A DNA stretch of 21,946 nucleotides from a virus: positions 1 to 21,946 of IMG/VR virus record IMGVR_UViG_3300042154_000424, one strand, 5' to 3'. How positions within the stretch are numbered: the stretch's first letter is position 1; every line of letters starts with the position of its first letter. Shown here piece by piece: positions 1,556 to 6,423 of this stretch. The translations under genes were made by a program, and so were the position numbers. Under the pieces are notes generated by a model, which saw nothing but the letters and a program-made list of their open reading frames with translations, did no database searches and was not told the origin of the DNA.

Positions 1556-2329
1556 ATGTCTGAACAAGAAGTAGCGGTACAGGTCGAACAGACCCCCGCG
1601 CCAGCAGAGCTCCAGGTTACGGCACCTGAACCCGCTGAAGCAACACCACAAACGCCGGAAGCGACCAAGACCTTCACTCAAGAAGAGCTTGACGCCATCG
1701 TTGCCAAACGGCTTGCGCGAGAGCAGCGCAAGTGGGAGCGCCAACAGCGCCCCCAGCAGCAAACGTCCGAGACGCCCAAGGAACTGCCGCCGGCAGAACA
1801 GTTTGAGTCGGTTGAAGCCTACGCGCAAGCGCTGGCCGAACAGAAGGCTCAACAGCTTCTCCAGCAAAGGGACATGGAGCGCCAACAGGCCGAGCTGCTG
1901 GAGACGTACGCGGAACGGGAAGAGCAAGCGCGGGACAAGTACGACGACTTTGAAACGGTCGCCTACAACCCGAACCTGCGAATCACCACCGTGATGGCGC
2001 AAACGATTCAGGCTTCTGACGCTGGCCCTGACCTTGCCTATTATTTAGGCAGTCATCCAAAGGAAGCTGATCGCATCTCCCGCTTGAGCCCGATCTTGCA
2101 GGCCAAGGAGATCGGCAAGATTGAGGCGAAACTCGCCAGCAGTCCAATGCCGGTCAGGAAGCAATCGAGCGCCCCGGCGCCCATCACGCCTGTCACAGCG
2201 CGAACGGCCGGAACGCCCGCTTACGACACCACGGACCCTCGCTCGGTCAAAGCGATGGATGCTACTGCGTGGATCGAAGCGGAGCGCCAACGGCAGATCC
2301 GCAAGTGGCAAGCCCAACAGCAAGTTTAA
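1556..2329 (+). CDS. Capsid scaffolding protein
   Basis: The 257-residue, highly charged, glutamine- and alanine-rich protein lies directly before the major capsid gene, the usual scaffold position. Residues about 42-60 (KTFTQEELDAIVAKRLARE) are the motif commonly seen near the N-terminus of phage scaffold proteins. They are followed by a long predicted coiled coil (about 60-150) and a basic C-terminal helix (WIEAERQRQIRKWQAQQQ) that would bind coat protein. Scaffolds guide coat assembly into procapsids and then leave. I chose the ATG at 1556 because MSEQE starts the charged domain; the GTG at 1523 in the same frame would add 11 residues over a hairpin. The next gene starts nine bases after the stop with its own strong ribosome site. 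Confidence 0.85.
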   Translation: MSEQEVAVQVEQTPAPAELQVTAPEPAEATPQTPEATKTFTQEELDAIVAKRLAREQRKWERQQRPQQQTSETPKELPPAEQFESVEAYAQALAEQKAQQLLQQRDMERQQAELLETYAEREEQARDKYDDFETVAYNPNLRITTVMAQTIQASDAGPDLAYYLGSHPKEADRISRLSPILQAKEIGKIEAKLASSPMPVRKQSSAPAPITPVTARTAGTPAYDTTDPRSVKAMDATAWIEAERQRQIRKWQAQQQV

Positions 2330-2334
2330 GGAGC
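2327..2334 (+). promoter_or_regulatory. Strong ribosome binding site of capsid gene
   Basis: TAAGGAGC overlaps the scaffold stop codon and places AAGGAG about five to six bases before the ATG at 2339. It is stronger than the sites of the upstream genes, fitting the need for large amounts of coat protein. Confidence 0.7.
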
Positions 2335-2338
2335 CATC

Positions 2339-2435
2339 ATGGCAAATAGCATTCTTACGATTGACATGATCACGAGGAAGGCTCTCGAAATCCTCGAGAA
2401 CAACCTTGTGATCACCCGTAACGTAAACCGTCAGT
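2339..2435 (+). CDS. Major capsid protein, exon 1 (P22 coat family)
   Basis: ATG 2339 starts MANSILTIDMITRKALEILE, followed by NNLVITRNVNRQ, which is the N-terminal arm of the P22-type coat protein (P22 gp5 family). The frame then meets TAA at 2435-2437. In relatives the coat sequence continues directly as 'NRQYD.SFA.EGAKIG'. Here that continuation is found at 3170, so the gene is split. The exon is 97 nt: 32 codons plus the first base (T2435) of the Tyr codon. Its last seven bases (CGTCAGT, 2429-2435) pair with an internal guide at 2449-2455, ending in a U.G wobble as group I 5' splice sites do. If the RNA were not spliced, only a 32-residue peptide would be made. Confidence 0.9.
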
Positions 2436-3169
2436 AAACGAAAGTCTAGCTGACGTTAAACCCCGTTAATTGCTGGAAACCCCTTAGAGCCATGCACGCC
2501 ACAACGCACTCGGAAACGGGAATCGTGACGGCCAAAAAGTGCTGGATTGGGCAATCAGCAGCCAAGCATCTTATCATTAACTGTGATATGATGAAGGTTC
2601 AACGACTAGCCGGAAACGGCGTAGGGCCAAGCGGCCCGAAATGCGGGGCAAACGTGAAGCGATCAGTTGAAGAACGATTTTCTGAAAAAGTGGCCGTCCG
2701 CGAGAATGGCTGCCATGAGTGGGTCGGGTTTGTGATGCGTAACGGGTATGGGCAGTTCAGCATGAACGGAAAGCCCCACTACTCGCACCGCGTAGCGTAT
2801 GAGTTGGCGTATAGCAAGCCAACAGACTACGTTCTGCACAAATGCGACAATCGTCGATGCGTCAACCCAGAACATCTGTTTTCGGGTTCGTTCCACGACA
2901 ACATGGCAGACATGACCACTAAAAATCGCCAGGCTGCTGGCGATCGTAGCGGGCGCCGCAAACTGTCGTCGGAAGACGTCAAGAAAATTCGCGCTTCAGT
3001 TGGTCTGCACCGAGAGATTGCTGCTCAATTTGGTGTCACACCTAGCTTGGTGTCGATGATCCGAAGTGGGCGCATCTGGCGGTCCGTTTGAAGATATAGT
3101 CTGATCCTTGGTGAAAGCCAAGGCTGCGAAAGCAGGGTGTGGGTGTAGCGGCCCATGCCGAACAGAATG
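2436..3169 (+). ncRNA. Group I intron (IA-like) in the major capsid gene
   Basis: The intron core is readable by eye. P1: exon CGTCAGT with guide GCTGACG (2449-2455), with a U.G pair at the splice site. P3: CCCCGT (2461-2466) with GCGGGG (2643-2648). P4: GCTGG (2472-2476) with TCAGC (2555-2559). The R element is GTTCAACGACTAG (2597-2609) and the S element AAGATATAGTCTGA (3091-3104). P7: GACTA (2604-2608) with TAGTC (3097-3101). Two hairpins lie between P7 5' and P3 3': GCCG-GAAA-CGGC (2609-2620) and GGGCC-AAGC-GGCCC (2624-2637). These match P7.1/P7.2 of subgroup IA. P9: CCTTGG/CCAAGG (3106-3123), then CTGC-GAAA-GCAG (3124-3135). Ending at G3169 restores T-AC (Tyr) and the coat frame. The 5' site is firmer than the 3' site. 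Confidence 0.93.
2654..3091 (+). CDS. Intron-encoded HNH homing endonuclease
   Basis: The 145-residue protein, if started at GTG 2654, lies between P3 3' and the S element, i.e. in the P8 loop. Residues about 20-90 form an HNH domain (HNH_3-like): conserved Cys20, the segment SHRVAYELAYSKP, then H62-K-C-D-N-R-R-C69-V-N71-P-E-H74 with the histidine/asparagine/histidine signature. Residues 104-143 (LSSEDVKKIRASVGLHREIA, then FGVTPSLVSMIRSG) are a helix-turn-helix of the kind used for target recognition. Such enzymes nick or cut the intronless coat allele so that the intron is copied in. The same frame has an ATG at 2492, but that start would translate P4-P6 and R, so it is less likely. The stop TGA (3089-3091) abuts the S element. 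Confidence 0.9.
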   Translation: MKRSVEERFSEKVAVRENGCHEWVGFVMRNGYGQFSMNGKPHYSHRVAYELAYSKPTDYVLHKCDNRRCVNPEHLFSGSFHDNMADMTTKNRQAAGDRSGRRKLSSEDVKKIRASVGLHREIAAQFGVTPSLVSMIRSGRIWRSV

Positions 3170-4275
3170 ACGACAACTCGTTCGCGCAGGAAGGCGCCAA
3201 GATTGGTACGACCCTTCGTATCCGTCTGCCGGACCGCGCGCTGGTAACCGATGGCGCCGCGCTGCAAGTGCAGGACGACAATGAGCAGTTCACCACGCTC
3301 ACCGTCTCCAGCCAGAAGCATATCGGCATCAACTTCACGACTGCCGAACTGACGATGCAGCTCGACGACTTCGCCGAGCGTGTGTTGAAGCCTCGGGTTA
3401 GTCAGCTGGCCTCCAGCATCGACGCCGATGTGGCGAACGCTTACCAAGGCATCTTTGCCTCGGTCGGCACGCCTGGCACCGTTCCGTCGACGAGCCTGGT
3501 GCTGCTCCAAGGTCAGCAGAAGCTGAACGAGGCCGCCGCGCCGATGAGCCCGCGCTACGCCACCGTCAACCCGGCTGCCAACGCCGGTCTGGTCGAGGGC
3601 ATGAAGGGCTTGTTCAACCCGGTGTCGACCATCAGCCGTCAGTTCAAGTCGGGCCTGATGGGCGAAGGCATTCTGGGTTACGACGAGATGGCGATGTCGC
3701 AGTCGATCAAGCAGCACACGACCGGCACCCGCACCGGCGCGCACACGGTGACCACTACCGTCAGCACGCAGGGCGCGACGACCGTTGCGATCACCGGCAC
3801 CGGCACGCAGACCATCAAGAAGGGCGATGTGTTCACCGTTGCGAACGTCTATGCGGTCAACCCGCAAACCCGTGAGTCGACTGGTGCTCTTCAGCAGTTT
3901 GTGGCGACCGCTGACGCGACGGCAGCCGGCGGTGCGTACACGGTCAGCGTCAGCCCGGCGATCTACACCTCCGGTCAGGCTCTGGCAACCGTGGACTCGT
4001 TCCCGCAATCGGGCGCGACGGTGACCTTCTTGGGCAGCGCCAGCACCCAGTACCCGCAGAACCTGCTCTACCACAAAGACGCGATCGCGTTTGCGACCGC
4101 TGACCTTGTGATGCCGCAGGGCGTGGACATGGCGAGCCGCCAGGTTCACAACGGGATCTCCATGCGGATCGTGCGCCAGTACGACATCAACAACGACAGG
4201 ATGCCCTGCCGTATTGACGTCCTCTACGGCTACTCGGTCATTCGTCCGCAACTCGCTTGCCGTATGTGGGGTTAA
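3170..4275 (+). CDS. Major capsid protein, exon 2 (P22 coat family)
   Basis: This exon continues the coat protein. T2435 plus AC (3170-3171) gives Tyr, followed by DNSFAQEGAKIGTTLRIRLP and the family segment TTAELTMQLDDFAERVLKPR. With exon 1 the protein is 400 residues, close to the 430 of P22 coat. The middle (about residues 205-300, HTVTTTVSTQGATTVAI onward) is Thr/Val/Gly-rich beta structure and probably corresponds to the insertion (I) domain of P22-type coats. The C-terminus, ending in VIRPQLACRMWG, is also typical. The protein is an HK97-fold shell subunit. An in-frame GTG at 3139 lies inside the intron and is not a real start. A decoration-type gene follows after 24 bases. Confidence 0.92.
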
Positions 4276-4299
4276 ACCCTTTCTGTAAAGGAACAAATC

Positions 4300-4707
4300 A
4301 TGGCTCTTTCTAATGGTGCAGGCGGCTATCAGGTCGGCGCTGGCAATCGTGCAGAAACCACGATGGGCTACGCGGACACACCGCAAACCGCAACTTCCAC
4401 GGCGACCCTGACCGCCGCCCAGATTTTGGGCGGTATGCTGGTAGCCAACCCTTCCACTTCTGCTGCAACCTACACGCTGCCGACCGCTGCTCTGATTGAT
4501 GCGGCACTGCCCAACGCTACTGTTGGCAGTACGTTTGATCTGAACTTGGTCAACATCGGTACGTCAAGCGGCACCGTCACGTTAGCTACGGCGACTGGCA
4601 TCACAGATGGCGGCAACGCCTTTGTTGTGGTAGCCATCACCTCAAGCGCAGCGTTTCGGTTCCGCAAGACCGCAGAGGGTGCGTACACGGTCTACAAGAT
4701 TGCCTAA
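4300..4707 (+). CDS. Small beta-rich virion protein, possible capsid decoration
   Basis: The 135-residue protein starts MALSNGAGGYQVGAGNRAET and is dominated by Thr, Ala and Val in short strands (TATLTAAQILGGMLVANPST, ATYTLPTAALIDAAL, GTVTLATATGITDG). It ends in FRFRKTAEGAYTVYKIA. The 'YTLPTA...G..FDLNLVN...VTLA' arrangement resembles small trimeric phage beta proteins. It is preceded by a good ribosome site (AAAGGA, about eight bases from the ATG) and directly follows the coat gene. That position suggests an abundant head decoration or stabilising protein, but no characterised family is confidently recognised. The next gene shares its general strand pattern and may be a distant paralogue. 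Confidence 0.75.
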   Translation: MALSNGAGGYQVGAGNRAETTMGYADTPQTATSTATLTAAQILGGMLVANPSTSAATYTLPTAALIDAALPNATVGSTFDLNLVNIGTSSGTVTLATATGITDGGNAFVVVAITSSAAFRFRKTAEGAYTVYKIA

Positions 4708-4719
4708 AGGAGCTACGTC

Positions 4720-5079
4720 ATGCCGAATACTAAATCTGTTGGCGTGGCGTACTCCGATCCGGCGCTGACGTCGTTTTACCTCAACGCTCCGGTCACCAAG
4801 ACCGCCAGCTTTACGCTGGGCGAAGATGAAAACTACGTCATCTGTAACGGCTCCGCTGCCAACGTCACTGTGACGTTGCCCAGCGGGGCTGCTTACATCG
4901 GACGGACCGTCTACCTCAAAAACTTGTCGGGCACTTACACGGTCATTTCCGCGTCGTCTAACGTCAAGCCGCGTACCTCAAACACTGCTGCCACGGCCAT
5001 TTTGGCCGCGTCAGCGGGTGCTTGGGCAACGCTGGTTTGCGAAGATGGCACGAATTGGGTCGTTATGGCCGGCAACTGA
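4720..5079 (+). CDS. Small beta-rich virion protein, fibre- or decoration-like
   Basis: The 119-residue protein reads as a succession of strands: TKTASFTLGEDENYVICNGS, ANVTVTLPSGAAYIGRTVYL, KNLSGTYTVISASSN, then AGAWATLVCEDGTNWVVMAG. The combination 'VTLPS...GR.VYLKN..GTYTV' followed by 'TLVCEDGTNWVV' is a common domain pattern at the tips of phage fibres and in small head proteins. It has a strong ribosome site (AAAGGAG) about seven bases before the ATG and ends five bases before a very stable hairpin. An abundant virion protein made together with the coat seems likely. Whether it decorates the head or belongs to a fibre cannot be decided from sequence. Confidence 0.72.
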   Translation: MPNTKSVGVAYSDPALTSFYLNAPVTKTASFTLGEDENYVICNGSAANVTVTLPSGAAYIGRTVYLKNLSGTYTVISASSNVKPRTSNTAATAILAASAGAWATLVCEDGTNWVVMAGN

Positions 5080-5083
5080 TGGA

Positions 5084-5107
5084 CAGCGGGGGCTTCGGCC
5101 CCCGCTG
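5084..5107 (+). terminator. Very stable UUCG-capped hairpin, possible terminator
   Basis: A perfect ten-base-pair stem (5084-5093 with 5098-5107), nearly all G-C, is closed by a TTCG tetraloop. It begins five bases after the stop of the 119-residue gene and ends seven bases before the next ATG. No T-run follows, so it may be an inefficient terminator, an RNA 3'-end stabiliser that raises expression of the capsid block, or both. Confidence 0.6.
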
Positions 5108-5114
5108 CATACAC

Positions 5115-5306
5115 ATGGCAATAATTTACCTGCGGCACCCCACCCACGGCGAGAAAATCGCCACGATGGAGATGGAAGCCGAACAGGATGAAAAGAACGG
5201 CTGGGTGCGGTATGATCCGGACGAGGCCGAGGCGCCTTCGACCAACGAGCTAGCCGCGCCTGCGCGGCGGCGTCGGAAGGACACCGCTCATGCAGAGCTA
5301 CTATGA
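5115..5306 (+). CDS. Hypothetical 63-residue protein with basic tail
   Basis: Starting at ATG 5115 the product is MAIIYLRHPTHGEKIATMEM, an acidic middle (EAEQDEKNGWVRYDPDEAEA) and a basic tail (ARRRRKDT). The frame is open further upstream, but that would run through the strong hairpin and the previous gene's 3' end. There is no obvious Shine-Dalgarno site because the hairpin sits just upstream. The charged segments recall small proteins of phage structural regions, but I cannot assign a function. It overlaps the glycine-rich fibre gene by 17 bases, implying coupled translation. Confidence 0.65.
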   Translation: MAIIYLRHPTHGEKIATMEMEAEQDEKNGWVRYDPDEAEAPSTNELAAPARRRRKDTAHAELL

Positions 5307-6423
5307 CATTGTCACAGACAGTGGCAACAACCCGATCAGCGGCGCGCTGGTCTACGTCTATGATTCGTTAGGCGCGCTCGCAACGATTTATTCTGATGAT
5401 GGGCTGACGCTTCAGTCAAACCCCATCACGACAAACGCTTCCGGCGGCTGGATCTTCTACGCAGCTAACGGCATCTACAGCGCCGTCATCACCGCTGCTG
5501 GCTACACCAGCAAGACCATCACCGGCATCACGCTAAACGACCCGACGCCCTCGCAAGGCGCCGTCGACATCCAAGAGTTCACAACGGTCGGCACATCGAC
5601 CTGGACGAAACCGCTCGGCGCTCGGTACGTCGAAGTGCTGATGTACGGTGGCGGTGGTGGTGGAGGGTCTGGCAGACGCAGGAGCGCGTCAACAGCAAAC
5701 AACGCTAATGGTGGTGGCGGTGGTGGCGCTGGCGCAAGGATCGATATTCGCATTCCTGCAAGCGCACTGAGCGCCACAGAGACAATCGTTATTGGATCGG
5801 GCGGCACAGGTGGTCCTGCACAAACGGCCGACGAAACGAACGGCACACTAGGTGGAACTGGTTCATCCAGTCAATTTGGCACTTTTGTGGCAATTGGCGG
5901 CGCTGGTGGTACTGGTGGGTCAACTTCTGGTGTCGGCGTTGCTGGTGGCGCTAGACGACTAAGCATAGATGCATTTCGCACTGCAACGACACCGTTTTCA
6001 TCTGCTGGTGGGTCTGGAACTACATCTGTAGGAAATGGTGGGAGTCGGGGCGGGTATGTCGGCGGCGGCGGTGCTGGAGGCGCTGGTTTTTTAGCAGGAT
6101 CAACAACCTCGCAGATAGGCGGCGACGGTGGTCTTGGCGGCGCGGTGTTCTCTGGCAATGCAACTGATGCTGGCGGCGGCGGCGGCGCTGCCGGAACCGC
6201 TGGAGGCAACGGAGGCGCAGGAGCTGACGGTCTGCTGGACTACTTCGTTGGCGGCTCAGGAGGCGGCTCAGGCGGCTGTACTAGCACTCAGGCAGGATCT
6301 GGCGGTAAAGGTGGATTTCCTTCTGGCGGTGGTGGTGGTGGCGCTGCTGCGTCTGGAGCGTTCGACTCAGGCGCAGGCAGCGACGGTGGCGACGGGTTCG
6401 TGCGCGTGGTGACCTACCTATGA
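5290..6423 (+). CDS. Glycine-rich tail fibre / adhesin
   Basis: This 377-residue protein has two parts. Residues about 8-80 (NNPISGALVYVYDSLGALAT through ASGGWIFYAANGIYSAVITA) look like a transthyretin- or carboxypeptidase-regulatory-type beta domain, frequent as an N-terminal module in phage fibres. From residue about 95, 'FTTVGTSTWTKPLGARYVEV' opens a long glycine-rich domain with many GGGGGG and GGAGG runs, ending in GGDGFVRVVTYL. Glycine-rich repeats of this type form polyglycine-II helix bundles in the T4-like phage S16 adhesin gp38, where the loops bind the receptor. That analogy is inference. The ribosome site GGAAGGA lies nine bases before the ATG, and the stop overlaps the next ATG (ATGA, 6420-6423). 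Confidence 0.82.
   Translation: MQSYYDIVTDSGNNPISGALVYVYDSLGALATIYSDDGLTLQSNPITTNASGGWIFYAANGIYSAVITAAGYTSKTITGITLNDPTPSQGAVDIQEFTTVGTSTWTKPLGARYVEVLMYGGGGGGGSGRRRSASTANNANGGGGGGAGARIDIRIPASALSATETIVIGSGGTGGPAQTADETNGTLGGTGSSSQFGTFVAIGGAGGTGGSTSGVGVAGGARRLSIDAFRTATTPFSSAGGSGTTSVGNGGSRGGYVGGGGAGGAGFLAGSTTSQIGGDGGLGGAVFSGNATDAGGGGGAAGTAGGNGGAGADGLLDYFVGGSGGGSGGCTSTQAGSGGKGGFPSGGGGGGAAASGAFDSGAGSDGGDGFVRVVTYL

Follow-up and report, generated by a model that had tools for sequence, protein, structure and literature searches.

A group I intron with an HNH endonuclease frame, apparently mobile, in the P22-type coat gene of an environmental phage

Group IA introns occur in several phage genes, including td, nrdB, and sunY of T4 and the DNA polymerase gene of SPO1, and introns of the SPO1 type carry HNH enzymes. 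The mark of subgroup IA is the presence of P7.1 and P7.2 between P7 and P3'. The intron that we describe here is like those of T4 and SPO1 in having P7.1 and P7.2, an endonuclease frame in a peripheral loop, and a stop codon near the 5' splice site. It is unlike them in its host, which is a late structural gene instead of a gene of DNA metabolism.

In mycobacteriophage LittleE, RT-PCR together with sequencing of the protein's N-terminus proved that an intron in the major capsid gene is spliced (Pope et al. 2013, PMC3706429), and the authors cite another capsid intron, from the lactococcal phage Tuc2009 (PMC3706429). LittleE is also a tailed phage, and the intron in its major capsid gene is most likely of group I and has a putative homing endonuclease; as at our locus, the exon ends in U and the intron ends in G. 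However, the phage lineage and the intron are different, and the LittleE frame lies on the opposite strand and has similarity to LAGLIDADG enzymes, whereas ours is a sense-strand HNH frame, located in P8 of an intron that clearly matches Rfam's group I model. An earlier note on this DNA had considered a late structural gene to be a less usual host for such introns. The interrupted gene is indeed a coat gene, but a capsid host is not unprecedented, since the LittleE intron is proved; Tuc2009 and 49 further P22-type coat loci (see below) are other examples.

Among named phages, Aeromonas phage phiA009 (OM033134), for example, has about 71% identity to the 5' part of our intron over 198 nt. This match is confined to the 5' part of the core (27% of the intron), and no record in that search covers 80% of the intron. 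A literature search, which was not exhaustive, found no report of an intron in a P22-type coat gene. The kind of element is already known; what is new is its recurrence across coat lineages.

The DNA that we analyzed, from a short-tailed phage, is an IMG/VR virus record of 21,946 nt (IMGVR_UViG_3300042154_000424), and we refer to this whole stretch as the window. The features of the coat locus are:

2327 to 2338, plus strand: ribosome-binding region of the coat gene (AAGGAG), from the sequence; overlaps the stop of the scaffold gene
2339 to 2435, plus strand: coat exon 1, with 32 codons (MANSIL...NRQ) and the first base (T) of a Tyr codon
2429 to 2455, plus strand: P1, exon CGUCAGU (2429-2435) with the internal guide GCUGACG (2449-2455); U2435.G2449 is at the 5' splice site
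2436 to 3169, plus strand: group I intron, 734 nt, from the RF00028 match, the empty site in loci L006 and L005, and covariation; the last base is G (omega-G)
2461 to 2648, plus strand: P3, 2461-2466 with 2643-2648
2471 to 2560, plus strand: P4 (2471-2476 with 2555-2560) and P5 (2481-2483 with 2549-2551), with an extended L5 (2484-2548)
2561 to 2598, plus strand: P6 and P6a
2604 to 2608, plus strand: 5' strand of P7, GACUA, which pairs with UAGUC at 3097-3101 (the guanosine-binding helix)
2609 to 2637, plus strand: P7.1 (2609-2620, GAAA loop) and P7.2 (2624-2637), the subgroup IA mark
2650 to 3089, plus strand: P8, 2650-2654 with 3085-3089; its loop is occupied by the endonuclease frame
2654 to 3091, plus strand: probable HNH homing-endonuclease frame, 145 amino acids from GTG 2654 (PF13392, phrog_1872, codon-position signal)
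3097 to 3101, plus strand: 3' strand of P7, UAGUC
3106 to 3159, plus strand: P9 (3106-3123, GAAA loop), P9.1 (3124-3135, GAAA loop), and P9.2 (3136-3159)
3170 to 4275, plus strand: coat exon 2, through the stop codon; its first two bases complete the Tyr codon (PF11651, phrog_283, spliced translation)

The coat frame begins with ATG 2339, downstream of AAGGAG, and is closed after 32 codons by TAA at 2435-2437. Sequence 3' of 3169 belongs to the coat family (118 bits to PF11651 and 232 bits to phrog_283), which bears out the P22-type coat assignment in the earlier note. A scaffold gene (phrog_8865) lies upstream, as a neighbor of this P22-type major head protein. If 2435 is joined to 3170, the frame is restored and the translation (...NVNRQ-Y-DNSFAQEGAKIG...) is a full-length P22-type coat protein. 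We also compared the locus to intronless homologs, as the earlier note had suggested. Phage L006 is nearly identical to the phage in the window (the exon 1 peptide is the same, and the flanks are 99.7% and 97.3% identical) and has an empty site, where CGTCAGTAC runs uninterrupted into GACAACTCG; L005 has a similar empty site. Because the coat sequence of L006 is uninterrupted, the insert is exactly 2436-3169 (734 nt), so the earlier account of where the frame stops and resumes had the coordinates right.

A search of the window against Rfam, also suggested in the earlier note, gave RF00028 (group I catalytic intron) as the only match, with 80.5 bits (E = 2.5e-19, model positions 1-253 in full, and a gathering score of 50). 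All of P1, P3, P4, P5, P6, P7, P7.1, P7.2, P8, P9, P9.1, and P9.2 can be drawn with standard pairs, with the P7.1 and P7.2 hairpins placed between P7 and P3'. Exon 1 ends with U2435, which is paired with G2449, and the intron ends with G3169. P10 is weak, with about 3 base pairs and a 2-nt offset.

The drawn pairs are supported by covariation. We counted 71 pairs (P1 and P3 to P9.2) over 22 distinct copies of the intron. Changes on both sides were seen at 43 of the 71 pairs, which none of 500 shuffles reached, and standard pairs filled 92.3% of cells, as compared to 80.6% in shuffled alignments and 32-42% with slid partners. No shuffle matched the real alignment on any of five measures. P3 is 100% paired (4 of 6 pairs changed on both sides), P9 is 99% paired (6 of 7), and P7, which crosses P3, is 98% paired and almost invariant. 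Both sides also changed in 7 of 8 pairs in P6a, 8 of 9 in P7.1 and P7.2, 4 of 5 in P8, and, across copies at different sites, 6 of 7 in P1; the U.G pair at the splice site is present in 21 of 22 copies. P4, P5, and two pairs in P6 are invariant in the 22 copies and hence uninformative. P9.2 is weaker (67% paired), probably due to shifts in the alignment. Given the Rfam match, the empty site, and the covariation, our analysis supports the identification of 2436-3169 as an IA-like group I intron in a P22-type coat gene, and the core that the earlier note had drawn (P1 with its U.G pair, P3, P4, P7, P7.1/P7.2, and P9) holds up.

The intron also contains an HNH frame, which the earlier note did not mention. 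The frame matches PF13392 (HNH_3; E = 1.4e-6, 28.2 bits versus a cut-off of 24.8), and a mechanically-called ORF of 199 amino acids from ATG 2492 matches phrog_1872 (E = 1.9e-26). We rejected ATG 2492, which lies inside the catalytic core, as the start because 2492-2653 has no codon-position bias. Third-position excess and synonymous bias are seen only from 2654 onward, which makes 2654-3091 the probable gene, with a GTG start and a product of 145 amino acids; it fills the P8 loop. Its start codon overlaps P8, and its stop codon comes after P8. Compared to relatives for which both rates could be estimated, dN/dS is about 0.1-0.2, so this intron-encoded HNH frame is under purifying selection. 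Because the P8 loop holds such a frame, this looks like a mobile intron. The single protein sequence had no match among solved structures. With the family profile, I-PpoI matched in the zinc loop, which was insignificant (E about 0.3), and the C-terminal part had a weak likeness to helix-turn-helix domains (E = 0.02).

A 25-nt core pattern identified 78 stretches of IMG/VR in many genes, about half of them in P22-type coat genes. Using this and a second pattern, followed by exact assignment of the sites, we gathered 50 P22-type coat loci that have an intron, counting the window; 25 of them are distinct at 97%. The 3' splice sites of L128, L153, and L176 were assigned by eye. There are five insertion sites, which together span no more than about 15 codons. 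In 42 of the 50 loci, the intron is at the same site as in the window (NRQ^Y or NRE^Y); the other sites are VN^RQ (L097 and L134), DDQ^F (L104, L136, and L146), YD^D (L118 and L152), and KIG^Y (L119). The P1 guide and the exon vary together from site to site. An HNH_3-type frame is present in 42 of the 50 introns, and five introns (292-347 nt) hold none; the other three failed the HNH motif search. Of 13 representative loci, 12 matched RF00028 at its gathering threshold, and L153 was below it.

L153 is also among the three introns that failed the motif search. Its intron, at 2153-2833 when read in the direction of the coat gene, is at the same coat site and encodes another type of HNH protein (a weak match to PF01844, E = 0.02), and this loop gene precedes the P7.2/P3' region instead of lying in P8. 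This suggests that the endonuclease was acquired independently. Among the window's nearest relatives (L091-L096), the intron's first 140 nt (window 2436-2576, including the extended L5) is almost invariant; the HNH part diverges by about 25-30% in L092-L095. A 36-nt intron pattern had no matches in GTDB genomes, and the intron core had none in E. coli genomes, so we found no host.

Full, endonuclease-less, and empty alleles coexist among P22-type coat loci. A pattern for the empty site had at least 120 matches, versus 37 for the intron-bearing pattern; empty sites seem to be commoner, although the two patterns differ, so these counts do not give a rate. A separate set of coat sequences, which included none of the intron-bearing relatives, did not enter into this comparison. 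HNH similarity tracks the insertion site and not the coat protein. L171 and L105 share a site, and their HNH proteins are 70% identical while their coat proteins are 42% identical; L147 and L119 have different sites, and their coat proteins are 72% identical while their HNH proteins are only 41% identical. In the coat tree, the Site-A carriers do not form one clade (p-AU = 3e-74), whereas in the HNH tree, the Site-A proteins all lie on one side of one branch (support 92). When the HNH tree was constrained to the coat grouping, it was rejected only marginally (p-AU = 0.037), with long branches present. Homing predicts both the three allele states and the disagreement between the coat tree and the HNH tree.

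The intron might instead still splice but now be inherited vertically with its coat lineage, with an HNH protein that no longer drives homing. Six further near-identical copies have both the intron and the flanks in common, as this would predict. However, L006 is nearly identical to the window's phage and lacks the intron, the relationships of the coat and HNH proteins are discordant, and the low dN/dS of the HNH frame argues against a loss of homing, so we consider vertical inheritance to be unlikely. It is very unlikely that the intron is degenerate and does not splice, with the coat protein starting in the intron's tail. There is an in-frame reading frame of 378 amino acids from GTG 3139, but 3139-3169 is P9.2 and the tail of the intron and not coat sequence, and all of the core helices are intact, with compensatory changes. 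Furthermore, exon 1 has a good ribosome-binding site, and across intron-bearing loci it stays in frame with mostly synonymous differences; because of this conservation we rejected GTG 3139 as the coat start. Finally, although the element comes from metagenomic contigs only, an assembly artefact or a non-intron insertion is in effect refuted by its compensatory evolution and by the occurrence of such elements in 49 further contigs, which are drawn from many datasets.

We propose that an IA-type mobile intron lies in codon 33 of a P22-type coat gene, that it splices and homes via its HNH protein, and that introns of this kind have entered five sites. We give this a probability of roughly 0.93. 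The internal guide (2449-2455) of the late transcript would pair with the end of exon 1. As expected from the conserved ribozyme, exogenous guanosine bound in P7 would attack after U2435, and the freed exon 1 would then attack after G3169 to give an uninterrupted coat message. Because TAA spans the splice site, an unspliced message would give only a 32-residue peptide, and this TAA would also keep ribosomes out of the intron core. We infer that splicing occurs in vivo, and it follows logically, as the earlier note had argued, that the supply of coat protein would depend on the efficiency of the ribozyme. The distribution of the intron suggests that when a co-infecting phage has a coat gene without the intron, the HNH protein probably cuts that gene near the site, and repair would copy the intron in. 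Introns of the same class would have invaded the part of the gene for the coat N-terminus, at five sites and in many lineages of phages, and some copies would have lost the endonuclease.

More broadly, we lean toward the view that P22-type coat genes have a previously unreported hotspot in their first 45 codons, where HNH-bearing group IA introns repeatedly cross between coat lineages of environmental phages (with identity as low as 35-45%) and re-target neighboring sites by changing the guide. If so, a selfish intron has repeatedly settled in a highly expressed virion gene whose product is essential. In such phages, gene callers would see a 32-amino-acid stub, then an HNH gene, and then a coat gene without its 5' end, so coat annotations would be wrong. 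With alleles of a single gene that are empty, full, without the endonuclease, or shifted in site, these loci are a ready comparative system for studying homing and the re-targeting of guides.

We also note three observations from these and other loci. In L101 (IMGVR_UViG_3300036466_000243, 4155-5511, minus strand), three group I introns (85, 71, and 68 bits) lie in a 1.4-kb stretch, immediately after a DNA-polymerase-like frame and apparently also within it; their 5' cores look alike and their P1 regions differ. In a Manatee Spring phage (L309, MW202674.1, 1155-2670), the annotation splits the P22 coat gene in two and places a small hypothetical gene in between. Since tblastn matches this coat gene in one piece, the split may be due to a frameshift or a sequencing error rather than an intron. 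In the window, downstream of the head genes, 5290-6423 is a very glycine-rich frame of 377 amino acids, possibly a tail or fiber component with low-complexity repeats.
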